This document shows positions 2,970 to 50,900 of a stretch of 64,000 nt of DNA, one piece after another; positions within the stretch are counted from its first letter, which is position 1, and every line of letters begins with the position of its first letter. The translations under genes were made by a program, and so were the position numbers. The notes under the pieces were generated by a model. That model searched no databases. It was not told the DNA's origin and saw only the letters and a list, made by a program, of their open reading frames with translations. Location of the stretch: NCBI RefSeq assembly GCF_963576615.1, contig NC_088714.1:496001-560000 (forward strand), read 5' to 3'. This stretch comes from Watersipora subatra. Taxonomy: Eukaryota; Bryozoa; Gymnolaemata; Cheilostomatida; Watersiporidae.

Positions 2970-3836
2970 CACACTGGCCCAACCAGGTGTCACCACTCTA
3001 TGGACTGACACACCCAGGTGTCACCACTCTATGGACTGGCACACTCAGGTGTCACCACTCTATGGACTGGCACACTCAGGTGTCACCACTCTATAGACTG
3101 GCACACTCAGGTGTCACCACTCTAAGGACTGGCACACTCAAGTGTCACCACTCTATGGACTGGCACACTCAGGTGTCACCACTCTATGGACTGGCACACT
3201 CAGGTGTCACCACTCTATGGACTGGCACACTCAGGTGTCACCCATCTATGGACTGGCACACTCAGGTGTCACCACCCCATGGACTGGCACACTCAGGTGT
3301 CACCACTCTATGGACTGGCACACTCAGGTGTCACCACTCTATGGACTGGCACACTCAGATGTCACCACTCTATGGACTGGCACACTCAGGTGTCACCACT
3401 TTATGGACTGGCACACTCAGGTGTCACCACTCTATGGACTGGCACACTCAGGTGTCACCACTCTATGGACTGGCACACTCAGGTGTCACCACTCCATGGA
3501 CTGGCACACTCAGGTGTCACCACTCTATGGACTGGCACACTCAGGTGTCACCACTCTATGGACTGGCACACTCAGGTGTCACCACTCTATAGACTGGCAC
3601 ACTCAGGTGTCACCACTCTATGGACTGGCACACTCAGGTGTCACCACTCTATAGACTGGCACACTCGGGTGTCACCACTCTATGGACTGGCACACTCAGG
3701 CGTCACCACTCTATGGACTGGCACACTCAGGTGTCACCACTCTATGGACTGGCCCACTCAGGTGTCACTATACTATAGACTGGCACACTCAGGTGTCACT
3801 ATACTATAGACTGGCACACCCAGGTGTGATGATACT
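2970..3836. repeat. 31-bp minisatellite, about 28 copies (unit A)
   Basis: Tandem array of a 31-bp monomer that starts TATGGACTGGCACACTCAGG and ends in a GTGTCACCACTC-like stretch. Most monomers differ by zero to two bases; the common variants are CCCACC for CACACTC and AGATG for AGGTG. Each standard monomer contains the E-box CAGGTG and the short inverted repeat GGTG-T-CACC. It lies about 1.2 kb upstream of the TATA box of copy A. As 31 is not a multiple of 3 and the monomer has no stop in any frame, it creates long but meaningless open frames. Confidence 0.95.
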
Positions 3837-5117: not shown

Positions 5118-8100
5118 ATGGGATCTCTAAAATATTTTTTCCATTCGTAAGTACCATCTCTGAGACAGTCTAGAGAGATCAGTTATAAATAATGTCTACT
5201 TCTGTTATTAATTATCACATGTGAATACATTTTAGTATCTTCATTCTGTGTTATGGTGAGATGGTGGTTACATCTGCTGCACTTTGTTGTAGGTTACTAA
5301 TAGCAGAAGTACTTCTACTGACTCTGAACATACAGGTAGGTCCAGATTTCAAATTCTATTGACTCTGCTGCGGCCTCAACTATAATTTACCACTTCCATG
5401 TCATAAACACATATCCATCTGTCCTATATACTTATATATTGGCTACCTATTATAGTATAAACCTATTGGTATATGTTTTGTAGGTCACAATATCACAAGG
5501 GTATGTATACTTTGGAGAACCATATTACTCTAATCAACTGGTATCAACGTTATGAGAGGTTTCGGGTTGCATGATGATTCTCAGTGTAAATACCTGTAGA
5601 TGACACTTTGGTGAAGGTGCTACATTGCTGCTGATGCTGCCGTGTATGGTAGGGACTATCATCATTACTATTAGTCATAGTTCTTCTGTGTTTTGTAGAA
5701 CATCAGATGGAGAACGTAACATTACAGGTAAGCAGTGATTCTTTCTTTTCCTACTATCAACAAATACAATATCAATTTTATCATGCGCTGCCGTATAAGA
5801 ATAGCTGCCGGTTCAGCAGAATCTTAGCATTTTTAACTAAATATTCAGTTAGATTAATTGGTTAGCAAATTGTCAACCCGAGTCTATCCATTTGCATTCA
5901 TATTATTTGTTGACAGCTGAGATGATTGAGAGAGAACGAGCTGAGAAAAGATTCAGCAATACGATATTTAGCCGTAGCACCGGAAATGAGTTCATCGACA
6001 ATTCAAATGCCTCTTCGTCAGCACAAACAGATGCTGCCATACTAAGGAGCATCGTTGATCAGTGAGTGCATTTCTTTATATCCATGACGTTCATAGGGGT
6101 CTTCAGTGAGATGATCAGAGAGGTGTTCATAGAGGTGTTCATAGATCTTCCTAGAGGTCTTCATAGAGTTATTCAGAGTGGTCTTCATAGAAGTGTTCGG
6201 TATATAGAAATAGAGTGGTGTTGGTTATAAGCCTTCAGAACATTCAACATCAACTGGTTTCGAATCTGTTTGGCTGTCTCTGACTCTTTGGTAAAGAAGG
6301 TACAACTTTTATATTCTTGTAGGACTGGAATCAATGTAACAACAAGTTTTGATGCTAATGGCAATCCAGTTGATCCAGGTGAGTCTTTCACTCAAAAAAC
6401 TAAAATTATTCTTATGTTAATAAACTGAAGTTTATGATCGAAATACCTCCTAAGCAAGATCTAAACCCTCTGACAACATTTATTTACAGAAGTAATGCAG
6501 GTGTCAGCCGAGCTACGTACATCTTGTGAATATGACCAAGCCAACTCACTGCCTTGCAGCAGTGGCTATAGAGAGCCAACAGCGAGATGTACAAATAGGC
6601 AAGAAGGCAGAAAAACATGGGGAATGTCTGGAACTCCATACACCAGAATTCTACCCGCTGCTTACCAAGATGGTACGTACCATTTTCCTTCTTAACTAAA
6701 GTTTCTTTTTAACTTTGATATTATTAGAATGTTAGGCTATTTGAATTAGTTATATATTGTAAGTTTACCTTTTTATGATTGGGCAATTTTCTACCCAATC
6801 AAACTGTTCAATGTCTACCGTACAATTTTTCAGGTGTCAGTGATCTTCGTAAACTCGAACACTTTTCCCGACAACCTCTGGCTTCCCCAAGAACAATCTC
6901 GACAACAGTAACTACCACTGAATTAATTCTGGACTTTGAGGGGTTCAATGCTGAGATCATGCAGTGGGGTCAATTCACAGCCCACGAGTTCACTCATCTC
7001 TCTGAAGTAGAACGTAAGTTTGACTCGTTGTGTGAAATATATAGAAAGCTTACAATCATAGTAGGTTAAGATCAATTTCAATGTTTTGAGTAAACTTGTC
7101 TTAACATTTTGTGTGACTTACTTTCAACGCATAATCTGCTGATTAGTAGATACATAACTGGAAACATGAAGCTTGTTGCATTACTGAGGAGCAAAATATT
7201 TTATCACAATTTTAGAAGAAACCGAGTGCTGCCCTGATCACATATTCGCGTCAAGAAATGGAACCACAGTGCAGCCGACAGAAGAAGACTTGGAGGCTAT
7301 CAGACAGGAGTTAAAGGAAACTAAAAAAGATGTATGCATGCAAGTGGAGACAAAGAATGACACTCACTACGGAGGGTATCTTTGTATGACTCAACGACGC
7401 TCTAGCCCCGCCCCTTTGCACGACTGCTCTTTAGGTATGTCCATTTTACAACTCGTGGCCTTGAACTTTCATAGCATTCTCTCAGTGAAAGTTTCCTGAA
7501 TTACGCGAATAATAAGCTTCATTTCTGTAGCTCAGAACTTACTTCTAGGTAGAGGGACAGAGGCAAACCTGATTTTCCTTGAGTTTATCGTTCAAATTGG
7601 TTGTATATCAACATGCGTGGTGCTTGTTACAGGTCCAAGACAGCAGATGAACAGTATTACTCATGTCTTCGACGCATCTGCCATCTATGGCAGTTCTCAA
7701 GAGGAGCTAGACAGTCTCAGAGATTCTACAGGTGGAAAAATGAAAACCCAGACTGTTAATGGTACAATACTACCCCCACCAGATAATAGCAGGTGTCCTG
7801 TGGCACGAAAGGCTGCTAACAAATGTCCATTTCTTGGAGGAGATACAAGGATTAATACGACTCGTGAGTACTTGTTATAACACTACTAACTTGCTGAAAT
7901 ACTCTTCTCACCTGAAGCTAGTTCTGTGATATTTAACCATGTAAACTATATATTTAAATTCTCTTACAGCCAACCTGGTCTCAACTCATACGGCCTTCCT
8001 TGTCAAGCACAACCAGATAGCCGAGAGACTGAGCAGCATCAACCCTCACTGGGACCATGAACGTCTCTTCCAGGTTAGTTACTAGCAGCTTCTGACAACC

Positions 8101-10686
8101 TTATTTGATGTACATTCGATATGTAATCATTAACTCAGCAACAATGCTACAAATATTGATGTCTTTGTGGGGCAACTTAATAATTTTTGGTTCAGTAAAC
8201 GCATGTCTTATGTTTGTCTAGGAATATGTTTGTCTCATATTCCTAAAATATATATTCCTAAAATATATATTTTAGGAATATGAGTAAGCAATTCCTAAAA
8301 TAAGTTAAACTTTTCTACAGGAAACGAGGAAGATTATATCAGGTATCCAAAGCAGCACACACTACTATGAATATCTTCCACTCATCATTGGCAATGAGAC
8401 AATAAGCAAGTACGAGTTGAACAACTACACAGGATTTGACCATGAAGTCAACCCTTCCTCACTGTAAGTGTCATTCTAAATGTACTCTCAGTTACTTCTA
8501 CTTAGTTCAGGAGGGGCACTTCATCACCACCCTCAATGACCTACATGTAGGGTCCTCAGGCTATAACTACTTGCTTGCTTAATAAAGCTCTTTAAATTGT
8601 TCAGTTCCAAATCAGATCCTATGTGACACAATACATATGAGTTTATAACAGAATGACATTGCCTTTGCTTACAGGAATGAGTTGGCACACGCAGCTTTCA
8701 GATTCGGACATTCGACAGTAGGTGGCAGGTTCTCCGTTCTCAAAGATGATGGTTCAGAAGACTTCTTAGACCTTACACAGAACTTCAACAATCCTGATCT
8801 TCTCTATGATGGAGGTGAGATCTCATACTGACTGACATATTTATCAACTAGTAGATGCGGATGGCACTACAGGAAGTTGATAGTGATAGCTAATTATACC
8901 GCTTAATTTATCCCTTCTAATAATAGTCATTCATGTTACAGGTTACCAGCAGTGTCTTAAAGGTCTACAGAAAGATGTACCATGGTTGGTTGACAGGAAC
9001 TACCCAGTAGCAGTGAGTATTTTCTTTATAGACATCTAGTACCTCTATTTATGTCAAGTTCATTGCAATCAGCTGTCTATTGCCATACAATGGTTGCGAC
9101 CTCGTCCAAACCTGACAGTTTGCTCTTGAATATTTAGATGAGAGACACCCTGTTTGCTGTCAAAAAGGATATCGTTTCATTGAACATCAACAGAGGAAGA
9201 GATCATGGTTTTCCCCCTTACGTGGCATACAGGTATGGTAGAGCTCAGTGGTGTTTCTCTCAATACCAATAGTCTGTTTATTCATAAATGTCTCTATTAC
9301 CATCTCAACCAACACCTTGACCTCTCTTTTTACTTCATATTGAGACAGAGCTATAAAATAATAGATGTAAATATTTAGATAATAAACAAGTAGAATATAA
9401 GAATTCACTATACTGCTAAGTCGATAGACAAGATACTCCTTCTATACATGACATTGTCTTATTTTATTATAGACGTCACTATGGGCTGAGTATTCCACGA
9501 ACATTTGAAGATCTCAAGGACACACACCCTGAAGAAGTTGTAGAGGCCCTACGTAAAGTTTATACAACTGTCACTGATGTAGAACTCTATATCGGAGGTA
9601 AATAACTACATCATTCACTTATTCGGCTGTAAAGTCATCACTGAGTATGACCAGTGGTCCATTTTATTGGCTTTGGTTCAGAATAATCATAAAGTTTTAA
9701 CTAACTTTTAGGTATCACAGAAAAGCCACTCACCGGAGCTTCTGTCGGAGAACTCTTTGCCAATATCATAGGTGATGGATTTGCCAGAATTAGGAATGGA
9801 GACAGACTCTTTTTTGAAAGCCCAGAGAGCGGCCTCACTCAAGGTAAATATATTCACCTCTAGTTTCTCCTCAGTTTTTAGTTTTGATATTATCACTTTA
9901 GATTTGTCCTCTCATTGTTCACAAAATTCAAAAAATGTGAGCTAGATTATACAACTATTGGAGATGAAAAGTACAAGTTTACATAGAAAGGTGATGACTA
10001 ACTTTGCTCTAGAGTAACTGAGTCTAACCATCCTAAGTCTTCTGATATTTACTGCTCTCACGGCTCTCCTTTTTCTCTTGCAGCTCAAATAGACAGCATC
10101 AAGGGATACAAATACAACAAGTTCTTATGTGACATCGGAGGCATGGCTAACATAAGCAGCAACGCTTTCATCATCGCTGGACGGTGAGTCGATTTTATCT
10201 TTTAAAATGCTGTCGAGAATGTTGACATCATAGCATACAGCCTGTGAGCCACAATACTCTATGCAGTCATTTTTATTGTTGTTTGTTTGAATTACAGAAA
10301 AGGAGCGACTACAGTTGAATGTGACAGCCTTCCAGAACTTGACTTGGAGCTCTGGAGAGAAAACACTCAGTCACCCCCTCAGTGCAATTGGAGGGTTACT
10401 AACGAAGGACCCTGTTGCTTTGGTAGGTTACTGTCTCACTTACCCACAAATCTTCTGCTGAATTTGCAACACGAGAAACCATTCTGTTTTCTACCAAATA
10501 AACAGAGTCTAACTGGACATGATCCGTTTTGTAGGCAGCCAAACTTTGACAAGAACCTGTGAAGGAGATGTCGGTTGCCTCTGTGAAGGCTCTGATACCA
10601 TCGAGGAACCATGCACTTGTGTCACGCCTGACTGTGTGAAGAGTTTATGGCGCAGATGTTTAAGCAAGCTGAGAGAGAGATGGTAG
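5118..10686 (+). CDS. Secreted animal heme peroxidase, copy A (20 exons, intact)
   Basis: Peroxidasin/myeloperoxidase-superfamily enzyme, 772 codons. Exons: 5118-5146, 5293-5335, 5484-5500, 5699-5727, 5917-6061, 6323-6378, 6490-6672, 6834-7013, 7216-7434, 7633-7863, 7970-8073, 8321-8463, 8675-8814, 8942-9012, 9138-9232, 9473-9597, 9712-9843, 10084-10183, 10298-10422, 10535-10686; all junctions are GT-AG and in phase. Residues 1-24 form a hydrophobic signal peptide. The peroxidase domain covers about 110-690: MQWGQFTAHEF with distal His218, FDASAIYGSS (calcium loop and YGS motif), GGDTRIN with Arg373, FRFGH with proximal His472, and NINRGRDHG. The usual heme-bonding Asp and Glu are Ala217 and Thr376. 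Residues about 700-772 are Cys-rich and resemble a thrombospondin type 1 repeat. Several N-glycosylation motifs fit secretion. Substrate unknown; peroxide-driven oxidation in the matrix or defence is inferred from the family. Confidence 0.92.
8220..8283. repeat. AT-rich palindromic insertion in intron 11 of copy A
   Basis: Copies B, D, E and F lack this stretch of about 60 bp. It includes a perfect 30-base palindrome at 8252-8281 (half-site ATATTCCTAAAATAT) and a second direct copy of the half-site to its left. It lies inside an intron and does not touch the splice sites. Confidence 0.8.
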
Positions 10687-16114: not shown

Positions 16115-19100
16115 ATGGGATCTCTAAAATATTTTTTCCATTCGTAAGTACCATCTCTGAGACAGTCTAGAGAGATCAGTTATAAATAATGTCTACTTCT
16201 GTTCTCAATTAACACATGTGAATACATTTTAGTATCTAAATTCTGTGTTATGGTAAGATGGTGGTTACATCTGCTACACTTTGTTGTAGGTTACTAATAG
16301 CAGAAGTACTTATACTGACTCTAAACATACAGGTAGGTCAAGAGGTCAAATTTTATTAACTTTGCTGCCTCAACTATAATTTACCTATTCCATGTCATAA
16401 ACACGTATCATCCATCTGTCCTATATACTTATATATTTGTTACCCATAGTATAAACCTATTGGTATATGTTTTGTAGGTCACAATATCACAAGGGTATGT
16501 ATACTTTGGAGAGCCATATTACTCTAATCAACTGGTATCAACGTTATGAGAGGTTTCGGTTGCATGATGATTCTCAGTGTAAATACCTGTAAATGAAACT
16601 CTGGTGAAGGTGCTACATTACTGCTGACGCTGCCGTGCATGGTAGTTAGAGACTATCATTAATACTATTAGTCATAGTTCTTCTGTATTTTGTAGAACAT
16701 CAGATGGAGAACGTAACATTACAGGTAAGCACTGGTTCTTTTTTTCCTACTATCAACCAGTACAATATCAATTTTATCATACGCTGCCGTATAAGAATAG
16801 CTGCCAGTTCAGCAGAATCTTAGCATTTTTAACTAAATATTCATTAAGATTAACTGGTTAGCAAATTGTCAACCCGAGTCTAGCTACCCATTTGCATTCA
16901 TATTATTTGTTGACAGCTGAGATGATTGAGAGAGAACGAGCTGAGAAAAGGTTCAGCAATACGATATTTAGCCGTAGCACCGGAAATGAGTTCATCGACA
17001 ATTCAAATGCTTCTTTGGCAGCACAAACAGATGCTGCCATACTAAGGAGCATCGTTGATCAGTGAGTACATTTCTTTATATCCATGACAACGGCGTTCAT
17101 AGAGATGTTCAGTGAGATGGTCAGAGTGGTGTTCATAGAAGGATCTTCATAGAGGTCTTCATAGAGTTAATCAGAGTGGTCTTCATAGAAGTGTTTGGTA
17201 TATAGAAATAGAATGGTGTTGGTTATAAGCCTTCAGAACATTCAGCATCAACTGATTTCGAATCTGTTTGGCTGTCTCTGACTCTTTGGTAAAGAAAGTA
17301 CAACTTTATATTCTTGTAGGACTGGAATCAACGTAACAACAAGTTTTGATGCTGATGGCAATCCAGTTGATCCAGGTGAGTCTTTCACTCTAAAAGCTAA
17401 AATTATTCTTATGTTAATAAACTGAAGTTTAGGATCAAAATACCTCCTAAGCAGAATCTAAACCCTCTGACAACGTTTATTTACAGAAGTAATGCAGGTG
17501 TCAGCCGAGCTACGTACATCTTGTGAATATGACCAAGCCAACTCTCTGCCTTGCAGCAGTGGCTATAGAGAGCCAACAGCGAGATGTACAAATAGGCAAG
17601 AAGGCAGGAAAACATGGGGAATGTCTGGAACTCCATACACCAGAATTCTACCCGCTGCTTACCAAGATGGTACGTACCATTCTCCTTCTTAGCTAAAGTC
17701 TATTTTTAACTTTGATGTTATTAAATATTAACCTATTTGAATTAGTCATATATTGTAAGTTTACCTTTCTATGATTGGGCAATTTTCTACCCAATCAAAC
17801 TGCTCAATGTCTATCGTACAATTTTTCAGGTGTCACGGATCTCCGTACACTCGAACACTTTTCCCGACAACCTCTGGCTTCTCCAAGAACAATCTCAACA
17901 ACAGTAACTACCACTGAGTTAATTCTGGACTTTGAGGGGTTCAATGCTGAGATCATGCAGTGGGGTCAATTCACAGCCCACGAGTTCACTCATCTCTCTG
18001 GAGTAGAACGTAAGTTTCACTCGTTGCTTAAAATATACATGTATAAAAAGCTTACAATCATCGTAGGTTAAGATAAATTGCAATGTTTTGAGCAAATTTG
18101 TCTTAACATTTTGTGTGACTTACTCTCGACGCATCACCTGCTGATTAATAGATACATAACTGTAAACATGAAGCTTGTTACATTACTGAAGAACAAAATA
18201 TTTTATCACAATTTTAGAAGAAACCGAGTGCTGCCCTGATCATATATTCGCGTCAAGAAATGGAACTGCAGTGCAGCCGACAGAAGAAGACTTGGAGGCT
18301 ATCAGACAGGAGTTAAAGGAAACTAAAAAAGATGTATGCATGCAGGTGGAGACAAAGAATGACACTCACTACGGAGGATATCTTTGAATGACTCAACGAC
18401 GCTCTAGCCCCGCCCCTTTGCACGACTGCTCTTTAGGTACGTCCTCTTTACAACTCATGGCCTTGAACTTTCATAACATTCTCTCAGTGAAAGTTTCCTG
18501 AATAAAGCGAATAATAAGCTTCATTACTGTAGCTCAGGAGTAACTTGTGGATGGGGGGGGTGAGAGGCAAACCTGATTTTCCTTGAGTTTATCATTCAAA
18601 CTGGTTGTATATCAACATGTATGGTGCTTTTTACAGGTCCAAGACAGCAGATGAACAGCATTACTCATGTCTTCGATGCATCTGCCATCTACGGCAGCTC
18701 TCAAGAGGAGCTAGACAGTCTCAGAGATTCTACAGGTGGAAAAATGAAAACCCAAACAGTTAATGGTACAGTACTACCCCCACCAGATAATAGCAGGTGT
18801 CCTGTGGCACGACAGGCTGCTAACAAGTGTCCATTTCTTGGAGGAGATACAAGGATAAATACGACTCGTGAGTACTTGTTATAACGCTACTAACTTGCTG
18901 AAATACTCTTTTCACCTAAAGCTAGTTTTGTGATATTTAACCGTGTAAACTATATATTTAAATTCTCTTACAGCCAACCTGGTCTCAACTCATACGGCCT
19001 TCCTTGTCCAGCACAACCAGATAGCCGAGAGGCTGAGCATCATCAACCCTCACTGGGACCATGAACGTCTTTTCCAGGTTAGTTACTAGCAGCTTCTGAC

Positions 19101-21624
19101 AACCTTATTTGATGTACATTCGATGTGTAATCATTAACTCGCAACAATGCTACAGATATTGATGTCTATGTGGGGCAACTTAACAACTGATTCAGTAAAC
19201 GCATGTCTTATGTTTGTCTCCGTGTGAGTAATCAAGTCCTAAAATAAGTTAAACCTTTCTACAGGAAACGAGGATGATTATATCAGGTATCCAAAGCAGC
19301 ACACACTACTATGAGTATCTTCCACTCATCATTGGCAATGAGACAATAAGCAAGTACGAGTTGAACAACTACACAGGATTTGACCATGAAGTCAACCCTT
19401 CCTCACTGTAAGTGTCACTCTAAATGTACTCTCAGTTACTTCTACTTAGTTCAGGAGGGGCACTGCATCACCACCCCCAATGACCTACATGTAGGGTCCT
19501 CAGGCTATAACTACTTGCTTGCTTAATAAAACTCTCTAATTCATTCAGTTCCAAATCAGATCCTATATGACACAATACATATGAGTTTATAACAGTATGA
19601 CATTGCTTTTGCTTTCAGGAATGAGTTGGCACATGCAGCTTTCAGATTCGGACATTCGACAGTAGGTGGCAGATTTTCCGTTCTCAAAGATGATGGTTCA
19701 GAAGACTTCTTAGACCTTACACAGAACTTCAACAATCCTGATCTTCTCTATGATGGAGGTGAGATCTCATACTGACTGACATATTTATCAACTAGTAGAT
19801 GCGGATGGCACTACAGGAAGTTGATAGTGATAGCTGATTATACTGCTTAATTTATCCCTTCTAATAATAGTCATTCATGTTACAGGTTACCAGCAGTGTC
19901 TTAAAGGTCTACAGAAAGATGTACCATGGTTGGTTGACAGGAACTACCCAGTAGCAGTGAGTATTTTCTTTATAGACATCTAGTACCACTATTTATGTCA
20001 AGTTCATTGCAATCAGCTGTCTATTGCCATACAATGGTTGCGACCTCGTCCAAACCTGACAATTTTGCTTTTGGATATTTAGATGAGAGACACCCTGTTC
20101 GCTGTCAAAAAGGATATCGTTTCATTGAACATCAACAGAGGAAGAGATCATGGTTTTCCTCCTTACGTGGCATACAGGTATGGTAGAGCTCAGTGGTGTT
20201 TCTCTCAATACCAATAGTCTGTTTATTCATAAATGTCTCTATTACCATCTCAACCAACACCTTGACCTCTCTTTTTACTTCATATTGAGACAGAGCTATA
20301 AAATAATAGATGTAAATATTTAGATAATAAACAAGTAGAATATAAGAATTCACTATACTGCTGAGTCGATAGACAAGATACTCCTTCTATACATGACATT
20401 GTCTTATTTTATTATAGACGTCACTACGGGCTGAGTATTCCACGAACATTTGAAGATCTCAAGGACACACACCCTGAAGAAGTTGTAGAGGCCCTACGTA
20501 AAGTTTATACAACTGTCACTGATGTAGAACTCTATATCGGAGGTAAATAACTACATCATTCACTTATTCGGCTGTAAAGTCATCACTGAGTATGACCAGT
20601 GGTCCATTTTATTGGCTTTGGTTCAGAATAATCATAAAGTTTTAACTAACTTTTAGGTATCACAGAGAAGCCACTCACCGGAGCTTCTGTCGGAGAACTC
20701 TTTGCCAATATCATAGGTGATGGATTTGCCAGAATTAGGAATGGAGACAGACTCTTTTTTGAAAGCCCAGAGAGCGGCCTCACTCAAGGTAAATATATTC
20801 ACCTCTAGTTTCTCCTCAGTTTTTAGTTTTGATATTATCACTTTAGATTTGTCCTCTCATTGTTCACAAAATTCAAAAAATCGAGGTAAATTTGGCAACT
20901 ATGGAAGATGAAGAGTACAAGTTTACATAGAAAGGTGATGGCTAACTTTGCTCTAGAGGTTTATTTTATTATAATGCCTCTGGTATTAACTGCTCTCATG
21001 GCTCTCCTTTTTCTCTTACAGCTCAGATAGACAGCATCAAGGGATACAAATACAACAAGTTCTTATGTGATATCGGAGGCATGGCTAACATAAGCAGCAA
21101 CGCTTTCATCATCGCTGGACGGTGAGTTGAATTTATCTTTTAAAATGCTGTCGAGAATGTTGACATCATAGCATACAGCCTGTGAGCCACAATACTCTAT
21201 GCAGTCATTTTTATTGTTGTTTGTTTGAATTACAGAAAAGGAGCGACTACAGTTGAATGTGACAGCTTTCCAGAACTTGACTTGGAGCTCTGGAGAGAAA
21301 ACACTCAGTCACCCCCTCAGTGCAGTTGGAGGGTTACTAACGAAGGACCCTGTTGCTTTGGTAGGTTACCGTCTCACTTACCCACAAATCTTCTGCTGAA
21401 TTTGCAACACGAGAAACCATTCTGTTTTCTACCTGATAAACAGAGTCTAATTGGACATGATCCATTTTGTAGGCAGCCAAACTTTGACAAGAACCTGTGA
21501 AGGAGATGTCGGTTGCCTCTGTGAAGGCTCTGATACCATCGAGGAACCATGCACTTGTGTCACTCCTGACTGTGTGAAGAGTTTATGGCGCAGATGTTTA
21601 AGCAAGCTGAGAGAGAGGTGGTAG
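16115..21624 (+). pseudogene. Heme peroxidase copy B, broken by a stop in exon 9
   Basis: Same 20-exon layout as copy A with splice sites preserved; landmark exons are exon 8 at 17830-18009 (distal His), exon 9 at 18218-18436, exon 10 at 18637-18867, exon 11 at 18974-19077, exon 12 at 19265-19407 and exon 13 at 19619-19758 (proximal His). In exon 9 the codon for Cys284 is TGA (18385-18387) where A, C, D, E and F have TGT. Translation would end before the calcium loop, Arg373 and the proximal His, so no working enzyme is expected. The rest of the frame is open and the promoter is intact, so the change is recent, a segregating allele, or a read error. The 5' part is closest to copy D. Confidence 0.85.
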
Positions 21625-22756
21625 AGAGGCCAGAATAATCATGTTAATTCATCTACTGCCTTCCGTGCCATCATCTTGTAACTTATATACAATTTTTTAC
21701 TGCAGTAAAAGTTTGTTGAACTAAAGGTTTTATTTTTTTAGAATACGCAAAGTTACTTAGTGTAGACAAATAGAAATAATTTTGTATAAGAGAATCGTAC
21801 CTAGGCCAACCGCAATGCCACCATTTCTTAACTCAGTTGTATCTCATTGCTCAAAAAAGACATTTCTTTCCCATACAAATCATAGGTGATTGATATTTGA
21901 GTGCTTTAAATCTCTATAACCAAATCTAGCAGAATATATTTTTACACATCATTATGTCTATTGTAAGTTGTTCACTTACCCTCTCATTCATGTTCATAAT
22001 TATTTATTACCTGTTTATAAAGCAATTATATATTATTGTTTTATTTTTTTTGTTTCAAGACCTCATCCTGTGATTTTATCAGTAATATGTTTCTTGTACC
22101 AACGATGATAGGTCATCAATAAACTATAATATTACTCTAAAGTCTCCTGACCCGAGCTTGTTTACCATTCATATAATCATCTTATTATCTAACTAGGCTC
22201 TTGTGTAGAACATAGTTGGTTCATCACATGGGTACGGCAGCATTGTCAGCATGTTATCACTGATCACCACAGACTCTCCTTTGCTGATACCAACTCTGTA
22301 TGCTATAGAGAATATACTAATTGCGCCAATTAATATGTAGTTAGGAGGATCAATTATATTCATTCATAACCTGTTATTGATTCTAGCTAAAATTTTTCAC
22401 ACTTGCTCAACACCTACAACATTTTAAACCAGCACAAATTGTTACATCATCAAATTCTAATCATAATGAAGGGCAGTAAGAGTACATTATTTATAGGTCA
22501 TGAACTCTGCACAAATCGGTGATGTTAAAGTTCTTGTTGAAATAGCCCATTCACTCGTAACAACAGAAGCTGCCTTTCTTAAGATTAGGAAGTTGTTGCC
22601 AGTTCTGATTACCAGACTGTAACCGCTGCCCGCTGCTTTCTTCAAATATAAGTTTTGTAGAAAGTCAGCAGTTCAATACTGATGCTAAAGCTGCTTACTT
22701 ACAATTTTGCTACTTAACTTCTGTTTTTAATTGAGTTTTCGAATTGAGAGATTAAT
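21625..22756. other. Shortened spacer between copies B and C
   Basis: This matches the first 1.1 kb of the A-B spacer, including the candidate poly(A) signal at 22118-22123, and then stops at about 22737. The hairpins, minisatellite, promoter and exons 1-8 expected next are absent. Bases 22738-22756 match neither side cleanly and look like filler at a deletion junction. Confidence 0.8.
22118..22123 (+). promoter_or_regulatory. Candidate poly(A) signal, copy B
   Basis: AATAAA about 490 bp after the stop codon, at the same place as in copy A. Confidence 0.4.
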
Positions 22757-23463
22757 TATTCGCGTCAAGAAATGGAACTGCAGTGCAGCCGACAGAAGAA
22801 GACTTGGAGGCTATCAGACAAGAGTTAAAGGAAACTAAAAAAGATGTATGCATGCAAGTGGAGACAAAGAATGACACTCACTACGGAGAGTATCTTTGTA
22901 TGACTCAACGACGTTCTAGCCCCGCCCCTTTGCATGACTGCTCTCTAGGTATGTCCATTTTACAACTCGTGGCCTTGAACTTTCATAGCATTCTCTCAGT
23001 GAAAGTTTCCTGAATAAAGCGAATAATAAGCTTCATTACTGTAGCTCAGGAGTAACTTGTGGGTGGGGGGAAAGAGGCAAACCTGATTTTCCTCAAGTTT
23101 ATCATTCAAACTGGTTGTATAGTAACATGTGTGGTGCTTGTTACAGGTCCAAGACAACAGATGAACAGCATTACTCATGTCTTCGATGCATCTGCCATCT
23201 ACGGCAGCTCTCAAAAGGAGCTAGACAGTCTCAGAGATTCTGCAGGTGGGAAAATGAAAACCCAAACTGTTAATGGTACAGTACTAGCTCCACCAGATAA
23301 TAGCAGGTGTCCTGTGGCACGACAGGCTGCTAACAAGTGTCCATTTCTTGGAGGAGATACAAGGATTAATACAACTCGTGAGTACTTGTTATAACGCTAC
23401 TAACTTGCTGAAATACTCTTTTCACCTAAAGCTAGTTCTGTGATATTTAACCATGTAAACTAT
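22757..23463 (+). pseudogene. Heme peroxidase copy C, left fragment (part of exon 9, exon 10)
   Basis: The fragment begins inside exon 9 (to 22948) and continues with exon 10 (23147-23377), which encodes the FDASAIYGSS calcium loop and the GGDTRIN motif. Promoter, signal peptide, exons 1-8 and the distal His are gone: compared with the intact layout about 6.4 kb is missing. The fragment ends in intron 10, where the LTR element starts. The remaining exons are still open, so the loss is recent. This copy cannot make a peroxidase. Confidence 0.9.
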
Positions 23464-30193: not shown

Positions 30194-32403
30194 ACTCTCA
30201 GTTACTTCTACTTAGTTCAGGAGGGGCACTGCATCACCACCCTCAATTACCTACATGTAGGGTCCTCAGGCTATAACTACTTGCTTGCTCCATAAAGTTC
30301 TCTAAATCATTCAGTTCCAAATCAGATCCTAAATGACACAATACATATGAGTTTATAACAGTATGACATTGCATTTGCTTTCAGGAATGAGTTGACACAC
30401 GCAGCTTTCAGATTCGGACATTCGACAGTAGGTGGCAGGTTCTCCGTTCTCAAAGATGATGGTTCAGAAGACTTCTTAGACCTTACACAGAACTTCAACA
30501 ATCCTGATCTTCTCTATGATGGAGGTGAGATCTCATACTGACTAACATATTTATCAACTAGTAGATGCGGATGGCACTACAGGAAGTGGATAGTGATAGC
30601 TAATTATACTGCTTAATTTATCCCTTCTAATACTAGTCATTCATGTTACAGGTTACCAGCAGTGTCTTAAAGGTCTACAGAAAGATGTACCATGGTTAGT
30701 TGACAGGAACTACCCAGTAGCAGTGAGTATTTTCTTTATAGACATCTAGTACCGCTATTTATGTCAAACTCATTGCAATCAGCTGTCTATTGTTATATTC
30801 ATGCAAACCTACAATGGTTGTGACCTCGTCCAAACCTGACAGTTTGCTCTTGAATATTTAGATGAGAGACACTCTGTTTGCTGTCAAAAAGGATATCGTT
30901 TCATTGAACATCAACAGAGGAAGAGATCATGGTTTTCCTCCTTACGTGGCATACAGGTATGGTAGAGCTCAGTGGTGTTTCTCTCAATACCAATAGTCTG
31001 TTCATTCATAAATGTCTCTATTACCATCTCAACCAACACCTTGACCTCTCTTTTTACTTCATATTGAGACAGAGCTATAAAATAATAGATGTAAATATTT
31101 AGATAATAAACAAGTGGAATATAAGAATTCACTATACTGCTGAGTCGATAGACAAGATACTCCTTCTATACATGACATTGTCTTATTTTATTATAGACGT
31201 CACTACGGGCTGAGTATTCCACGAACATTTGAAGATCTCAAGGACACACACCCTGAAGAAGTTGTAGAGGCCCTACGTAAAGTTTATACAACTGTCACTG
31301 ATGTAGAACTCTATATCGGAGGTAAATAACTACATCATTCACTTATTCGGCTGTAAAGTCATCACTGAGTATGACCAGTGGTCCATTTTATTGGTTTTGG
31401 TTCAAAATAATCATAAAGTTTTAACTAACTTTTAGGTATCACAGAGAAGCCACTCACCGGAGCTTCTGTCAGAGAACTCTTTGCCAATATCATAGGTGAT
31501 GGATTTGCCAGAATTAGGAATGGAGACAGACTCTTTTTTGAAAGCCCAGAGAGCGGCCTAACTCAAGGTAAATATATTCACCTCTAGTTTCTCCTCAGTG
31601 TTCAGGTTCAAATATATTACTTTAGATTTGTCCTCTTATTGTTCACAAAATTCAAAAAATCGAGGTAAATTCGGCAACTATGGAAGATGAAGAGTACAAG
31701 TTTACATAGAAAGGTGATGGCTAACTTTGCTCTAGAGGTTTATTTTATTATAATGCCTCTGGTATTAACTGCTCTCATGGCTCTCCTTTTTCTCTTACAG
31801 CTCAAATAGACAGCATCAAGGGATACAAATACAACAAGTTCTTATGTGACATCGGAGGCATGGCTAACATAAGCAGCAACGCTTTCATCATCGCTGGACG
31901 GTGAGTTGAATTTATCTTTTAAAATGCTGTCATGAATGTTGACATTACAGCGTATAGCCTGTGAACCACAATACTCTATGCAGTTACTTTTATTGTTGTT
32001 TGTTTGGATTACAGAAAAGGAGCGATTACAGTTGAATGTGACAGCCTTCCAGAACTTGACTTGGAGCTCTGGAGAGAAAACACTCAGTCACCCCCTCAGT
32101 GTAGTTGGAGGGTTACTAACGAAGGACCCTGTTGCTTTGGTAGGTTACCGTCTCACTTACCCACAAATCTTCTGCTGAATTTGCAACACGAGAAACCATT
32201 CTGTTTTCTACCTGATAAACAGAGTCTAATTGGACATGATCCATTTTGTAGGCAGCCAAACTTTGACAAGAACCTGTGAAGGAGATGTCGGTTGCCTCTG
32301 TGAAGGCTCTGATACCATCGAGGAACCATGCACTTGTGTCACTCCTGACTGTGTGAAGAGTTTATGGCGCAGATGTTTAAGCAAGCTGAGAGAGAGGTGG
32401 TAG
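30194..32403 (+). pseudogene. Heme peroxidase copy C, right fragment (exons 13-20)
   Basis: Resumes within intron 12 and carries exons 13 (from 30385) to 20, from the proximal-His motif FRFGH to the Cys-rich tail. Exons 11 and 12 (equivalent to 18974-19407 in copy B) are absent between the two fragments, so the gene would be dead even without the element. Splice sites and reading frames of the remaining exons are intact. Differences from the intact copies include NELTHAAF for NELAHAAF and SVRELF for SVGELF. No promoter remains, although the LTR lies just upstream. Confidence 0.88.
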
Positions 32404-37552: not shown

Positions 37553-40500
37553 ATGGGATCTCTAAAATATTTTTTCCATTCGTAAGTACCATCTCTGAGA
37601 CAGTCTAGAGAAATCAGTTATAAATAATGTCTACTTCTGTTCTCAATTAACACATGTGAATACATTTTAGTATCTAAATTCTGTGTTATGGTAAAATGGT
37701 GGTTACATCTGCTACACTTTGTTGTAGGTTACTAATAGCAGAAGTACTTATACTGACTCTAAACATACAGGTAGGTCAAGAGGTCAAATTTTATTAACTT
37801 TGCTGCCTCAACTATAATTTACCTATTCCATGTCATAAACACGTATCATCCATCTGTCCTATATACTTATATATTTGTTACCCATAGTATAAACCTATTG
37901 GTATATGTTTTGTAGGTCACAATATCACAAGGGTATGTATACTTTGGAGAGCCATATTACTCTAATCAACTGGTATCAACGTTATGAGAGGTTTCGGTTG
38001 CATGATGATTCTCAGTGTAAATACCTGTAAATGAAACTCTGGTGAAGGTGCTACATTACTGCTGACGCTGCCGTGCATGGTAGTTAGAGACTATCATTAA
38101 TACTATTAGTCATAGTTCTTCTGTATTTTGTAGAACATCAGATGGAGAATGTAACATTACAGGTAAGCACTGGTTCTTTTTTTCCTACTATCAACCAGTA
38201 CAATATCAATTTTATCATACGCTGCCGTATAAGAATAGCTGCCAGTTCAGCAGAATCTTAGCATTTTTAACTAAATATTCATTAAGATTAACTGGTTAGC
38301 AAATTGTCAACCCGAGTCTAGCTATCCATTTGCATTCATATTATTTGTTGACAGCTGAGATGATTGAGAGAGAACGAGCTGAGAAAAGGTTCAGCAATAC
38401 GATATTTAGCCGTAGCACCGGAAATGAGTTCATCGACAATTCAAATGCTTCTTTGGCAGCACAAACAGATGCTGCCATACTAAGGAGCATCGTTGATCAG
38501 TGAGTACATTTCTTTATATCCATGACAACGGCGTTCATAGAGATGTTCAGTGAGATGGTCAGAGTGGTGTTCATAGAAGGATCTTCATAGAGGTCTTCAT
38601 AGAGTTAATCAGAGTGGTCTTCATAGAAGTGTTTGGTATATAGAAATAGAATGGTGTTGGTTATAAGCCTTCAGAACATTCAGCATCAACTGATTTCGAA
38701 TCTGTTTGGCTGTCTCTGACTCTTTGGTAAAGAAAGTACAACTTTATATTCTTGTAGGACTGGAATCAACGTAACAACAAGTTTTGATGCTGATGGCAAT
38801 CCAGTTGATCCAGGTGAGTCTTTCACTCTAAAAGCTAAAATTATTCTTATGTTAATAAACTGAAGTTTATGATCAAAATACCTCCTAAGCAGAATCTAAA
38901 CCCTCTGACAACGTTTATTTACAGAAGTAATGCAGGTGTCAGCCGAGCTACGTACATCTTGTGAATATGACCAAGCCAACTCTCTGCCTTGCAGCAGTGG
39001 CTATAGAGAGCCAACAGCGATATGTACAAATAGGCAAGAAGGCAGGAAAACATGGGGAATGTCTGGAACTCCATACACCAGAATTCTACCCGCTGCTTAC
39101 CAAGATGGTACGTACCATTCTCCTTCTTAGCTAAAGTTTCTTTTTAACTTTGATATTATTAGAATGTTAGGCTATTTGAATTAGTCATATGGGGTATTGT
39201 AAGTTTACCTTTCTATGTTCGGTAATTTTTCGCCCTATCAAACTGCTCATTGCATATCATACAATTTTTCAGGTGTCAGTGAGCGTCGTACACTCGAACA
39301 CGTTTCTCGCCAACCTCTGGCTTCCCCAAGAACAATCTCGACAACAGTAACTACCACTGAGTTAATTCTGGACTTTGAGGGGTTCAATGCTGAGATCATG
39401 CAGTGGGGTCAATTCACAGCCCACGAGTTCACTCATCTCTCTGAAGTAGAACGTAAGTTTGACTCGTTGTGTGAAATATATAGAAAGCTTACAATCATAG
39501 TAGGTTAAGATCAATTTCAATGTTTTGAGTAAATTTGTCTTAACATTTTGTGTGACTTACTTTCAAAGCATAATCTGCTGATTAGTAGATACATAACTGT
39601 AAACATGAAGCTTGTTATATTACTGAAGTGCAAAATATTTTATCACAATTTTAGAAGAAACCGAGTGCTGCCCTGATCACATATTCGCGTCAAGAAATGG
39701 AACCGCAGTGCAGCCGACGGAAGAAGACTTGGAGGCTATCAGACAGGAGTTAAAGGAAACTAAAAAAGATGTATGCATGCAGGTGGAGACAAAGAATGAC
39801 ACTCACTACGGAGGGTATCTTTGTATGACTCAACGACGCTCTAGCCCCGCCCCTCTGCACGACTGCTCTTCAGGTATTTCCATTTTACAACTCGTGGCCT
39901 TGAACTTTCATAACATTCTCTCAGTGAAAGTTTCCTGAATAACGCGAATAATAAGCTTCATTTCTGGAGCTCAGAACTTACTTCTAGGTAGAGGGACAGA
40001 GGCAAACCTGATTTTCCTTGAGTTTATCGTTCAAATTGGTTGTATATCAACATGCGTGGTGCTTGTTACAGGTCCAAGACAGCAGATGAACAGTATTACT
40101 CATGTCTTCGACGCATCTGCCATCTACGGCAGCTCTCAAGAGGAGCTAGACAGTCTCAGAGATTCTACAGGTGGGAAAATGAAGACCCAGACTGTTAATG
40201 GTACAGTATTACCCCCACCAGATAATAGCAGGTGTCCTGTGGCACGAAAGGCTGCTAACAAATGTCCATTTCTTGGAGGAGATACAAGGATTAATACGAC
40301 TCGTGAGTACTTGTTATAACGCTACTAACATGGTAAAATACTCTTCTCGCCTGAAGCTAGTTTTGTGATATTCAGCTGTGAAAAATATATATTTAAATTC
40401 TCTTACAGCCAACCTGGTCTCAACTCATACAGCCTTCCTTGTCAAGCACAACCAGATAGCCGAGAGACTGAGTAGCATCAACCCTCACTGGGACCATGAA

Positions 40501-43060
40501 CGTCTCTTCCAGGTTAGTTACTAGCAGCTTCTGACAAACTTGTTTGATGTACATTCGATATGTAATCATTAACTCAGCAACAATGCTACAGATATTGATG
40601 TCGATGTGGGGCAACTTAACAACTGGTTCAGTAAATGCATGTCTTATGTTTGTCTCCGCGTGAGTAAGCAATTCCTAAAATAGGTTAAACTTTTCTACAG
40701 GAAACGAGGAAGATTATATCAGGTATCCAGAGCAGCACACACTACTATGAATATCTTCCACTCATCATTGGCAATGAGACAATAAGCAAGTACGAGTTGA
40801 ACAACTACACAGGATTTGACCATGAAGTCAACCCTTCCTCACTGTAAGTGTCATTCTAAATGTACTCTCAGTTACTTCTACTTAGTTCAGGAGGGGCACT
40901 TCATCACCACTCTCAATGACCTACATGTAGGGTCCTCAGGCTATAACTACTTGCTTGATTAATAAAGCTCTTTAAATTGTTCAGTCCCAAATCAGATCCT
41001 ATATGACACAATACATATGAGTTTATAACAGAATGACATTGCCTTTGCTTTCAGGAATGAGTTGGCACACGCAGCTTTCAGATTCGGACATTCGACAGTA
41101 GGTGGCAGGTTCTCCGTTCTCAAAGATGATGGTTCAGAAGACTTCTTAGACCTTACACAGAACTTCAACAATCCTGATCTTCTCTATGATGGAGGTGAGA
41201 TCTCATAATGACTGACATATTTATCAACTAGTAGATGCGGATGGCACTACAGGAAGTTGATAGTGATAGCTGATTATACTGCTTAATTTATCCCTTCTAA
41301 TACTAGTCATTCGTGTTACAGGTTACCAGCAGTGTCTTAAGGGTCTACAGAAAGATGTACCATGGTTGGTTGACAGGAACTACCCAGTAGCAGTGAGTAT
41401 TTTCTTTATAGACATCTAGTACCGCTATTTATGTCAAGTTCATTGCAATCAGCTGTCTATTGCCATACAATGGTTGCGACCTCGTCCAAACCTGACAGTT
41501 TGCTTTTGAATATTTAGATGAGAGACACCCTGTTTGCTGTCAAAAAGGATATCGTTTCATTGAACATCAACAGAGGAAGAGATCATGGTTTTCCTCCTTA
41601 CGTGGCATACAGGTATGGTAGAGCGCAGTAGTGTTTCTCTCAATACCAATAGTCTGTTCATTCATAAATGTCTCTATTACCATCTCAACCAACACCTTGA
41701 CCTCTCTTTTTACTTCATATTGAGACAGAGCTATAAAATAATATATGTAAATATTTAGATAATAAACAAGTAGAATATAAGAATTCACTATACTGCTGAG
41801 TCGATAGACAAGAGACTTTTTCTATACATGACATTGTCTTATTCTATTATAGACGCCACTACGGGCTGAGTATTCCACGAACATTTGAAGATCTCAAGGA
41901 CACACACCCTGAAGAAGTTGTAGAGGCCCTACGTAAAGTTTATACAACTGTCACTGATGTAGAACTCTATATCGGAGGTAAATAACTACATCATTCACTT
42001 ATTCGGCTGTAAAGTCATCACTGAGTATGACCAGTGGTCCATTTTATTGGTTTTGGTTCAAAATAATCATAAAGTCTTAATTAACTTTTAGGTATCACAG
42101 AGAAGCCACTCACCGGAGCTTCTGTCGGAGAACTCTTTGCCAATATCATAGGTGATGGATTTGCCAGAATTAGGAATGGAGACAGACTCTTTTTTGAAAG
42201 CCCAGAGAGCGGCCTCACTCAAGGTAAATATATTCACCTCTAGTTTCTCCTCAGTGTTCAGGTTCGAATATATTACTTTAGATTTGTCCTCTCATTGTTC
42301 ACAAAATTCAAAAAATGTGAGCTAGATTATACAACTATTGGAGATGAAGAGTACAAGTTTACATAGAAAGGTGATGGCTAACTTTGCTCTAGATGTTTAT
42401 TTTATTATAATGCCTCTGGTATTAACTGCTCTCATGGCTCTCCTTTTTCTCTTACAGCTCAGATAGACAGTATCAAGGGATATAAATACAACAAGTTCTT
42501 ATGTGACATCGGAGGCATGGCTAACATAAGCAGCAACGCTTTCATCATCGCTGGACGGTGAGTCGATTTTATCTTTTAAAATGCTGTCGAGAATGTTGAC
42601 ATTACAGCGTATAGCCTGTGAACCACAATACTCTATGCAGTCATTTTTATTGTTGTTTGTTTGGATTACAGAAAAGGAGCGACTACAGTTGAATGTGACA
42701 GCCTTCCAGAACTTGACTTGGAGCTCTGGAGAGAAAACACTCAGTCACCCCCTCAGTGCAGTTGGAGGGTTACTAACGAAGGACCCTGTTGCTTTGGTAG
42801 GTTACCGTCTCACTTACCCACAAATCTTCTGCTGAATTTGCAACACGAGAAACCATTCTGTTTTCTACCTGATAAACAGGGTCTAATTGGACATGATCCA
42901 TTTTGTAGGCAGCCAAACTTTGACAAGAACCTGTGAAGGAGATGTCGGTTGCCTCTGTGAAGGCTCTGATACCATCGAGGAACCATGCAGCTGTGTCACT
43001 CCTGACTGTGTGAAGAGTTTATGGCGCAGATGTTTAAGCAAGCTGAGAGAGAGATGGTAG
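37553..43060 (+). CDS. Secreted animal heme peroxidase, copy D (20 exons, intact)
   Basis: Same exon order and intron phases as copy A, with no stop noticed; landmarks are exon 8 at 39273-39452 (distal His in GQFTAHEF), exon 9 at 39655-39873 and exon 13 at 41055-41194 (proximal His). Copy-specific residues include Cys for Arg in the exon 4 segment, AICTN for ARCTN in exon 7, and the exon 8 start GVSERRTLEHVSRQP shared only with copy E. The exon 9 donor is GTATTT, weaker than GTATGT in A, C, E and F. The heme-bonding Asp and Glu are Ala and Thr as in copy A. Exons 1-7 are closest to copy B and exon 8 to copy E, so this copy is a mosaic. Enzyme role as for copy A. Confidence 0.9.
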
Positions 43061-47920: not shown

Positions 47921-50900
47921 ATGGAATCTCTAAAATATTTTTTCCATTCGTAAGTACCATCTCTGAGACAGTCTAGAGAGATCAGTTATAAATAATGTCT
48001 ACTTCTGTTATTAATTATCACATGTGAATACATTTTAGTATCTTCATTCTGTGTTATGGTGAGATGGTGGTTACATCTGCTGCACTTTGTTGTAGGTTAC
48101 TAATAGCAGAAGTACTTCTACTGACTCTGAACATACAGGTAGGTCCAGATTTCAAATTCTATTGACTCTGCTGCGGCCTCAACTATAATTTACCACTTCC
48201 ATGTCATAAACACATATCCATCTGTCCTATATACTTATATATTGGCTACCTATTATAGTATAAACCTATTGGTATATGTTTTGTAGGTCACAATATCACA
48301 AGGGTATGTATACTTTGGAGAACCATATTACTCTAATCAACTGGTATCAACGTTATGAGAGGTTTCGGGTTGCATGATGATTCTCAGTGTAAATACCTGT
48401 AGATGACACTTTGGTGAAGGTGCTACATTGCTGCTGATGCTGCCGTGTATGGTAGGGACTATCATCATTACTATTAGTCATAGTTCTTCTGTGTTTTGTA
48501 GAACATCAGATGGAGAACGTAACATTACAGGTAAGCAGTGATTCTTTCTTTTCCTACTATCAACAAATACAATATCAATTTTATCATGCGCTGCCGTATA
48601 AGAATAGCTGCCGGTTCAGCAGAATCTTAGCATTTTTAACTAAATATTCAGTTAGATTAACTGGTTAGCAAATTGTCAACCCGAGTCTATCCATTTGCAT
48701 TCATATTATTTGTTGACAGCTGAGATGATTGAGAGAGAACGAGCTGAGAAAAGATTCAGCAATACGATATTTAGCCGTAGCACCGGAAATGAGTTCATCG
48801 ACAATTCAAATGCCTCTTCAGCAGCACAAACAGATGCTGCCATACTAAGGAGCATCGTTGATCAGTGAGTGCATTTCTTTATATCCATGACGTTCATAGG
48901 GGTCTTCAGTGAGATGATCAGAGAGGTGTTCATAGAGGTGTTCATAGATCTTCCTAGAGGTCTTCATAGAGTTATTCAGAGTGGTCTTCATAGAAGTGTT
49001 CGGTATATAGAAATAGAGTGGTGTTGGTTATAAGCCTTCAGAACATTCAACATCAACTGGTTTCGAATCTGTTTGGCTGTCTCTGACTCTTTGGTAAAGA
49101 AGGTACAACTTTTATATTCTTGTAGGACTGGAATCAATGTAACAACAAGTTTTGATGCTAATGGCAATCCAGTCGATCCAGGTGAGTCTTTCACTCTAAA
49201 AACTAAAATTATTCTTATGTTAATAAACTGAAGTTTATGATCGAAATACCTCCTAAGCAAGATCTAAACCCTCTGACAACATTTATTTACAGAAGTAATG
49301 CAGGTGTCAGCCGAGCTACATACATCTTGTGAATATGACCAAGCCAACTCACTGCCTTGTAGCAGTGGCTATAGAGAGCCAACAGCGAGATGTACAAATA
49401 GGCAAGAAGGCAGGAAAACATGGGGAATGTCTGGAACTCCATACACCAGAATTCTACCCGCTGCTTACCAAGATGGTACGTACCATTCTCCTTCTTAACT
49501 AAAGTTTCTTTTTAACTTTGATATTATTAGAATGTTAGGCTATTTGAATTAGTCATATATTGTAAGTTTACCTTTCTATGTTCAGTAATTTTTCACCCTA
49601 TCAAACTGCTCATTGCATATCATACAATTTTTCAGGTGTCAGTGAGCGTCGTACACTCGAACACGTTTCTCGCCAACCTCTGGCTTCCCCAAGAACAATC
49701 TCGACAACAGTAACTACCACTGAGTTAATTCTGGACTTTGAGGGGTTCAATGCTGAGATCATGCAGTGGGGTCAATTCACAGCCCACGAGTTCACTCATC
49801 TCTCTGAAGTAGAACGTAAGTTTCACTCGTTGTGTGAAATATATAGAAAGCTTACAACAATCATAGGTTAAGATCAATTTCAATGTTTTGAGTAAATTTG
49901 TCTTAACATTTTGTGTGACTTACTCTCGATGCATCATCTGCTGATTAGTAGATACATAACTGTAAACATGAAGCTTGTTATATTACTGAAGAGCAAAATA
50001 TTTTATCACAATTTTAGAAGAAACCGAGTGCTGCCCTGATCACATATTCGCGTCAAGAAATGGAACCGCAGTGCAGCCGACGGAAGAAGACTTGGAGGCT
50101 ATCAGACAGGAGTTAAAGGAAACTAAAAAAGATGTATGCATGCAGGTGGAGACAAAGAATGACACTCACTACGGAGGGTATCTTTGTATGACTCAACGAC
50201 GCTCTAGCCCCGCCCCTTTGCACGACTGCTCTTTAGGTATGTCCATTTTACAACTCGTGGCCTTGAACTTTCATAGCATTTTCTCAGTGAAAGTTTCCTG
50301 AATAACGCGAATAATAAGCTTCATTTCTGTAGCTCAGAACTTACTTCTAGGTAGAGGGACAGAGGCAAACCTGATTTTCCTTGAGTTTATCGTTCAAATT
50401 GGTTGTATATCAACATGCGTGGTTCTTCTTACAGGTCCAAGACAACAGATGAACAGTATTACTCATGTCTTCGACGCATCTGCCATCTACGGCAGCTCTC
50501 AAGAGGAGCTAGACAGTCTCAGAGATTCTACAGGTGGAAAAATGAAGACCCAGACTGTTAATGGTACAGTATTACCCCCACCAGATAATAGCAGGTGTCC
50601 TGTGGCACGAAAGGCTGCTAACAAATGTCCATTTCTTGGAGGAGATACAAGGATTAATACAACTCGTGAGTACTTGTTATAACGCTACTAACATGGTAAA
50701 ATACTCTTCTCGCCTGAAGCTAGTTTTGTGATATTCAGCTGTGAAAAATATATATTTTAATTCTCTTACAGCCAACCTGGTCTCAACTCATACAGCCTTC
50801 CTTGTCAAGCACAACCAGATAGCCGAGAGACTGAGCAGCATCAACCCTCACTGGGACCATGAACGTCTCTTCCAGGTTAGTTACTAGCAGCTTCTGACAA

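Follow-up and report, generated by a model that had tools for sequence, protein, structure and literature searches.

Ester bonds between heme and protein have been described as the unique feature of the peroxidase-cyclooxygenase superfamily (PMC4420034, PMC6411640). An initial annotation of one window of the genome of Watersipora subatra (G000:C7:496001-560000, a stretch of 64,000 nucleotides analysed as a whole; assembly of 784 Mb in 239 contigs) proposed that an entire family of peroxidase genes has replaced both of the acidic residues that form these bonds in mammalian peroxidases. The locus thus raises the question of what has become of these proteins, that is, whether they are likely to be working peroxidases holding their heme without ester bonds, peroxidases that bind it covalently elsewhere, proteins that have abandoned heme, or the product of faulty gene models.

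Results

The reference gene of our analysis, copy A (5118..10686, + strand), is an intact heme peroxidase gene of 20 exons encoding 772 residues, with GT-AG boundaries at all introns. Its model, like all gene models discussed here, is a prediction from genomic sequence, and it was reproduced exactly by our purpose-written splice-aware aligner. In a Pfam scan, PF03098 was the only family above its cut-off (467.5 bits against a cut-off of 25, E 7.3e-140, profile positions 1-530 of 530), EAD10 scoring 12.7 bits and hence below its own. A phmmer search of PDB entries identified MPO (5.6e-64) and LPO (6.6e-61) as the best solved relatives, with weaker matches to Dictyostelium peroxinectin A (1.5e-52), DUOX (2.2e-22) and COX (1.7e-14); by sequence score, copy A is far nearer to MPO and LPO than to COX (family 4), which has no row in the tree described below. 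The Pfam scan of copy A revealed neither the leucine-rich-repeat and Ig domains of peroxidasin (family 2) nor the C-terminal NADPH-oxidase region of dual oxidase (family 7), and the integrin-binding KGD/RGD motif of peroxinectin (family 3) is absent from its sequence. A hydrophobic N-terminus suggests that the protein is secreted. Exons 19-20 (10298-10686) encode a Cys-rich C-terminal tail of about 60 residues which resembles a thrombospondin repeat by eye and has no Pfam match.

When copy A was re-read, the motifs and numbering given in the initial annotation (GQFTAHEF, GGDTRINTT, His472) turned out to be exact. Exon 8 (6834..7013, + strand) encodes GQFT-A217-H218-E219-F, with Ala217 (6980-6982) at the site of MPO Asp94, the distal His218 (6983-6985), and Glu219 (6986-6988) at a calcium-ligand site. 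Exon 10 (7633..7863, + strand) encodes the calcium loop Thr310-Ser316 (7659-7679, + strand) as well as GGDT-R373-I-N-T376-T, comprising Arg373 (7848-7850), Asn375 (7854-7856), Thr376 (7857-7859) and Thr377 (7860-7862). Exon 13 (8675..8814, + strand) contributes Arg469 (8700-8702) and the proximal His472 (8709-8711), and exon 15 (9138..9232, + strand) contributes Arg549 and Asn546 (9183-9185), the partner of the proximal His. The phmmer alignment with MPO is ungapped at both blocks ('wgqftahef' versus 'WGQLLDHDL' and 'gdtrinttp' versus 'GDTRSSEMP'), so that Ala217 corresponds to Asp94, Glu219 to Asp96, Thr376 to Glu242 and Thr377 to Met243. Met243, Arg333 and Arg424 of MPO, and the single residue numbers of the calcium loop, complete the site assignments used here. 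Alignment to MPO had been named in the initial annotation as a check on its claim, and it places Ala and Thr, and no acid, at the two ester positions. The roles of MPO Gln91, Asp94, His95, Asp96, Arg239, Glu242, His336 and Asn421 are those described in PMC3533774.

The initial annotation had also named a wrong exon 8/9 or 10/11 junction as a possible flaw. The Ala217 codon (GCC), however, is located 31 bases upstream of the end of exon 8 and the Thr376 codon (ACG) four bases upstream of the end of exon 10; both are thus inside exons and stay the same whichever acceptor is used for exon 9 or 11, and a junction artefact is rejected.

Copy A belongs to an array in which eight units (Z, A, B, D, E, F, G and H) are full-length and agree in the length of every exon. 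A ninth unit, C, is broken; seven of the nine are intact, the introns are of the GT-AG type, and Z, G and H are three further full copies just outside the window. Copies D (37553..43060), E (47921..53423) and F (58468..63902), all on the + strand, are intact and share the Ala/Thr state of copy A. So does copy B (16115..21624, + strand), which has the full exon set and whose frame is interrupted early, at residue 284 (18385-18387); this single premature stop within an otherwise full-length frame suggests that B is a recent pseudogene. Copy C survives as a remnant of exons 9 and 10 only (22749..23377, + strand), in which the Thr motif is present, and as 3' exons from about exon 13 onwards (30380..32400, + strand); its exon 8 was not found. 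Ala in A, B, D, E and F and the Thr motif in all six copies of the window, as initially annotated, are thereby confirmed. The two halves of copy C flank an insertion with repeated ends. The insertion resembles an LTR retroelement (- strand, 23459 to about 30200, the right end being estimated), with two 300-base repeats that are 99% identical and spaced 5313 bases apart, and with gag/pol-like frames recognized by reading. Between array units, a 31-bp minisatellite of ~14 to 28 copies was observed at 2973-3827, 14232-14934 and 35949-36372, and it may have helped unequal exchange in the peroxidase array.

Nine more distant loci of the same clade (hereafter the C7 clade), located on the same chromosome, show the same loss. 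The nearest paralogs, at 19.40 and 19.57 Mb, are 73 and 74% identical to copy A over the compared stretch, and seven others lie between 18.53 and 18.99 Mb, two of which were compared to A and exhibit 56 and 55% identity. At least 18 loci of the clade were found, a lower bound since the genome searches score the best candidates only; 17 are readable at both motifs, copy C being readable only at the Arg motif (Thr). It is true that B carries a stop, that C is broken and that the models were predicted from the genome, and one might thus attribute the altered residues to mis-splicing, pseudogenes or an assembly error. However, the position of both codons inside exons, the seven intact units with their identical exon lengths and GT-AG introns, the same state in nine more distant loci, and the purifying selection described below refute an artefact at the level of the sequence, and we assign this explanation a very small probability.

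Throughout the 17 loci readable at both motifs, among the at least 18 found, the Asp site is occupied by Ala (17/17), and the Glu site by Thr in 15, by Gln in one (19.40 Mb) and by Val in one (19.57 Mb). Where families 1-3, the chordate peroxidases, peroxidasins and peroxinectins, have the signature GQxxDHD, 16 of the 17 loci read GQFxAHE and one GQFIAHD; where these families have RxxE, the loci read RINT (15/17), RINQ (1/17) or RINV (1/17). Gln214, the distal His218 and the catalytic Arg373 are retained in 17/17 loci, Arg469 and His472 in all 14 loci with the proximal exon covered (three of the 17 being left out), and Asn546 and Arg549 in all 11 loci with that exon covered (six being left out). 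The Thr/Asp/Ser calcium loop is kept in the C7 clade. From the mapped rows, on which these counts, the tree and the comparison with bacterial columns described below all draw, we dropped exons that matched copy A at less than 28% identity or spanned fewer than 15 residues, as well as insertions relative to copy A. Locus P1893 was left out of the proximal counts, the Gly/Tyr at its Arg/His positions representing a false exon, since the true exon lies beyond the stretch retrieved. What had been claimed for the window, namely the family-wide loss of both ester acids along with retention of the distal His, Arg373 and the proximal His472, hence extends to every locus readable at these sites. Judged by its sequences, this is a peroxidase family that has kept its catalytic residues and lost both heme-ester acids, and it is a large, well-conserved case of ester-residue loss, similar losses having been reported in a few other animals.

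The Asp-to-Glu change beside the distal His, to which the initial annotation had likewise drawn attention as touching a calcium ligand, is real in 16 of the 17 loci, residue 219 being Asp in the remaining one. The change is probably tolerated, since the calcium loop is kept and Dictyostelium PoxA binds its ion via Asn-102, which adjoins the distal His-101 (PMC5787809). As residue 219 is the calcium-ligand position, Glu219 was set aside as a substitute ester residue. More generally, the heme might still be bound covalently by a different pocket residue. The clade does conserve several acidic positions, and covalent heme bonds of the superfamily form autocatalytically with H2O2 (PMC5377774). Yet apart from residue 219 (Glu, or Asp in one locus) no acid is found at or immediately beside either ester position, and no such relocated bond is described in the literature surveyed, so that we regard this explanation as quite improbable.

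Other peroxidase genes of the same genome were read at the same sites. Both acids are kept in a peroxidasin-like gene at C4:11.18 Mb (DHD and RANE) and in C10a at 44.40 Mb (DHD and RSNE). Asp is kept and Glu replaced in C8:28.27 Mb (L027/L028; DHD and RVNI, Glu to Ile) and in C10b at 44.52 Mb (L031/L032; DHD and RCNV, Glu to Val), and loss of Glu alone is thus not rare in this genome. The distal exon of C8 was dropped by the row filter, and its distal motif was taken from a separate read. A C5 gene at 57.33 Mb has DHD at the distal motif, its Arg motif lying outside the reading; a DUOX-like gene, named by its motifs, at C4:8.48-8.50 Mb has RGNE, and a C3 gene at 69.98 Mb has RAHE at the Arg motif. 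Several other C5 peroxidase genes lie outside this comparison at both ester sites. Of the genes with a reliable reading of the distal motif (the C7 clade, the peroxidasin-like gene, C10a, C8, C10b and the C5 gene at 57.33 Mb), those of the C7 clade alone lack Asp.

In a maximum-likelihood tree of 29 rows, which included 13 of the 17 C7 rows (the array being represented by units A, D, F and H only), the 13 C7 rows form one group with support of 100/100, the Asp-only C8 is located beside this group with moderate support (84/92), and C10a, with both acids, is joined with the Asp-only C10b (100/100). The placement of C8 is tentative, because the C8, C10 and C5 rows are partial and the spliced rows were templated on copy A. 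Since the 17 loci constitute one clade, they represent one origin and not 17 events. The simplest reading would be that this genome has seen two or more losses of Glu and a single loss of Asp, the latter dating to the root of the C7 clade and possibly postdating that of Glu.

The ratio dN/dS (Nei-Gojobori), mostly 0.1-0.2 overall, ranges from 0.07 to 0.27 across the 28 pairs formed by the eight full array units (the stop codon of B being skipped) and from 0.06 to 0.41 among the seven genes at 18.5-19.0 Mb (21 pairs), and is 0.15 between the genes at 19.40 and 19.57 Mb; synonymous change has reached saturation where copy A is compared with the remaining paralogs. Ala217 is encoded by GCC, GCT and GCG, and each of the four Thr codons is used for Thr377. 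Since the same residues persist through several synonymous codons, both appear to be held by selection; site 376, for its part, shifts among Thr, Gln and Val. This is the pattern that we would expect of working enzymes whose residue 376 no longer bonds heme.

To place the loss in a wider context, one genome per species was scanned for 84,980 prokaryote species with peptide patterns that avoid both ester sites, which yielded at least 593 matching stretches and at least 565 relatives. The best 80 of these at least 565 were all read; they are the most query-similar relatives and not a random sample, and the eukaryotes compared are this genome and PDB entries. None of these 80 bacterial relatives has lost both acids: Asp is present in 78, Glu in 79 (the other having Asp) and Gln in 79, while the distal His, Arg, proximal His and partner Asn are present in all 80. 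Of the two rows without Asp, one (L108) aligns poorly there. The finding that none of the 80 lacks both residues speaks against chance or error, as does the recurrence of the state in 17 separately placed loci, with the proviso given above that these share one origin. Of the 117 columns with at least 90% conservation in the 80 bacteria, copy A departs from 35, and the clade is thus divergent in general, the ester sites not being its sole departures; Gln214, His218, Arg373, Arg469, His472, Asn546 and Arg549 are all absent from those 35 columns. Scans of IMG/VR found no relative.

Two further positions distinguish the clade. Residues 373-378 are R-I-N-X-T-P in each of the 17 loci, which hence contain an N-X-T sequon (7854-7862 in copy A) in which X is the vacated Glu ester site, where the peroxidasin-like gene reads R-A-N-E-Q and C8 reads R-V-N-I-Q. 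Likewise, His426 (exon 12, 8321-8463) is fixed in the 17 loci, residue 426 being Thr in the peroxidasin-like gene, in C8 and in 76 of the 80 bacteria (best 80 of at least 565). His426 and the sequon at 375-377 could reflect a more deeply changed pocket. Located beside the catalytic Arg, the sequon might even block the pocket if it were used, but a Pro directly after a sequon, here Pro378, disfavours glycosylation.

Such departures raise the possibility that the proteins are pseudoperoxidases without useful heme binding, serving as secreted structural or binding glycoproteins. The loss of both ester sites is in line with this view, as is the departure of copy A from 35 of 117 columns that are otherwise conserved. 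In C. elegans HPX-2, moreover, a change of the catalytic Arg lowers pathogen resistance in part, and less than deletion does (PMC6368334); part of the role is thus retained, and such proteins can also act without catalysis. The seven catalytic and heme-contact residues kept wherever they were read and the low dN/dS argue against it, however, and DUOX domains without peroxidase activity have lost their His residues too (PMC4420034, PMC4654585). We thus consider a pseudoperoxidase rather unlikely.

Discussion

Our findings suggest that the members of the C7 clade are, as we consider likely, secreted and probably glycosylated enzymes of the peroxidase-cyclooxygenase superfamily which have lost the ester bonds, kept the cavity and hold their heme non-covalently; a low redox potential and weak halide oxidation would then be most likely. 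The initial annotation had considered non-covalent heme with an altered redox potential or, alternatively, another activity. The former appears to be the best inference, because the heme site is otherwise conserved and because the potential tracks the number of esters (PMC5787809), whereas nothing in our analyses supports the latter. In the series presented in that study, the potential is -0.276 V with one ester, -0.183 to -0.128 V with two, and +0.005 V in MPO with its third bond; the series includes no natural enzyme that lacks the esters while its cavity is otherwise intact, and no Asp-only enzyme, and the Asp-only state of C8 and C10b is not in its list of studied enzymes.

In the mechanism that we propose for these non-covalent peroxidases, heme b would be held by His472-Asn546 and by propionate contacts to two Arg residues, and His218 and Arg373 would cleave H2O2 to yield Compound I. 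With the esters absent, the Fe(III)/Fe(II) potential would fall below -0.276 V, the value of the Dictyostelium enzyme with its single ester. The enzymes would oxidise bromide and chloride poorly and would favour iodide, thiocyanate or one-electron donors of the phenol/tyrosine type, for use as in secreted-matrix cross-linking or defence. The zero-ester state would have a single origin, at the root of the clade, and would then have been multiplied by tandem duplication. Human peroxidasin 1, with both residues present, oxidises bromide well and chloride not (PMC5377774), and CyanoPOX, whose Asp and Glu are present and may be unreacted, is active with heme that is non-covalent in the crystal (PMC11776367). 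In line with a working peroxidase, HPX-2, which by description lacks the covalent residues, depends in part on its catalytic Arg (PMC6368334). Mollusc shell-matrix peroxidases (PMC4094399) were weighed as a functional parallel and rejected, since nothing ties this genome to molluscs.

The C7 clade shares with MPO and LPO (family 1) the domain family, Gln, distal His, Arg, proximal His, Asn, two Arg residues and the calcium loop, but differs from MPO in that Asp94 is replaced by Ala, Glu242 by Thr, Gln or Val, Asp96 by Glu (Asp in one locus) and Met243 by Thr. Dictyostelium DdPoxA (PDB 6ERC) has likewise lost the ester Asp (Ile) while keeping the catalytic residues and changing calcium ligands; it retains Glu-236 and one ester, however, whereas the C7 clade has neither residue (PMC5787809). 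By description, HPX-2, like BLI-3 and MLT-7, is without the residues for covalent heme and keeps both His and Arg (PMC6368334). The salmon-louse proteins LsPxtl-1 (first domain; GGxxAHD/RxxH) and LsPxtl-2 (GMxxAHD/RxxL) exhibit the same Ala and no Glu, but the Gln is gone as well (G-G, G-M), in contrast to its retention in 17/17 loci of the C7 clade (PMC10579435). The nematode short peroxidasins, eight genes as of PMC3533774 and all from nematodes, consist of the peroxidase domain alone, and neither Asp nor Glu is conserved; as described there, they are also without Gln, which sets them apart from the C7 clade with Gln214 in 17/17 loci. COX and DUOX (families 4 and 7) are stated exceptions to the GQxxDHD signature (PMC4420034), from which the C7 clade also departs, but they are weak matches to copy A (1.7e-14 and 2.2e-22 versus 5.6e-64 for MPO), which has no NADPH-oxidase part.

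The printed nematode and copepod precedents thus weaken the novelty of a double ester loss as such. No printed description of the C7 peroxidase clade was found among the matches listed in the open-licence PMC literature. What is distinctive in this clade is the retention of Gln, a residue associated with halide binding, together with the catalytic residues and the calcium loop across 17/17 loci. Also distinctive are its scale, the graded ester series within one genome, and the invariant N-X-T over the vacated Glu site.

It is tempting to speculate further, in a direction that we hold to be possible but doubtful, that the genome contains an ester ladder in which loss of the esters retuned the heme and drove the spread to at least 18 loci, the N-X-T sequon having replaced the Glu bond site. 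If so, the two-ester enzymes would be the C4 peroxidasin-like protein and C10a, the Asp-only enzymes C8 and C10b, and the zero-ester enzymes those of the C7 clade, the catalytic residues being intact at every site that could be read; C8 (Ile) and C10b (Val) would represent the mirror image of Dictyostelium PoxA, and the C7 clade would have spread because its heme went from halide oxidation to low-potential one-electron chemistry. The genome appears, in any case, to offer zero-ester and Asp-only points beside two-ester paralogs. Such paralogs, being proteins shaped by selection and not point mutants, may serve to probe the roles of the ester bonds in redox tuning, halide oxidation, heme retention and peroxide resistance.
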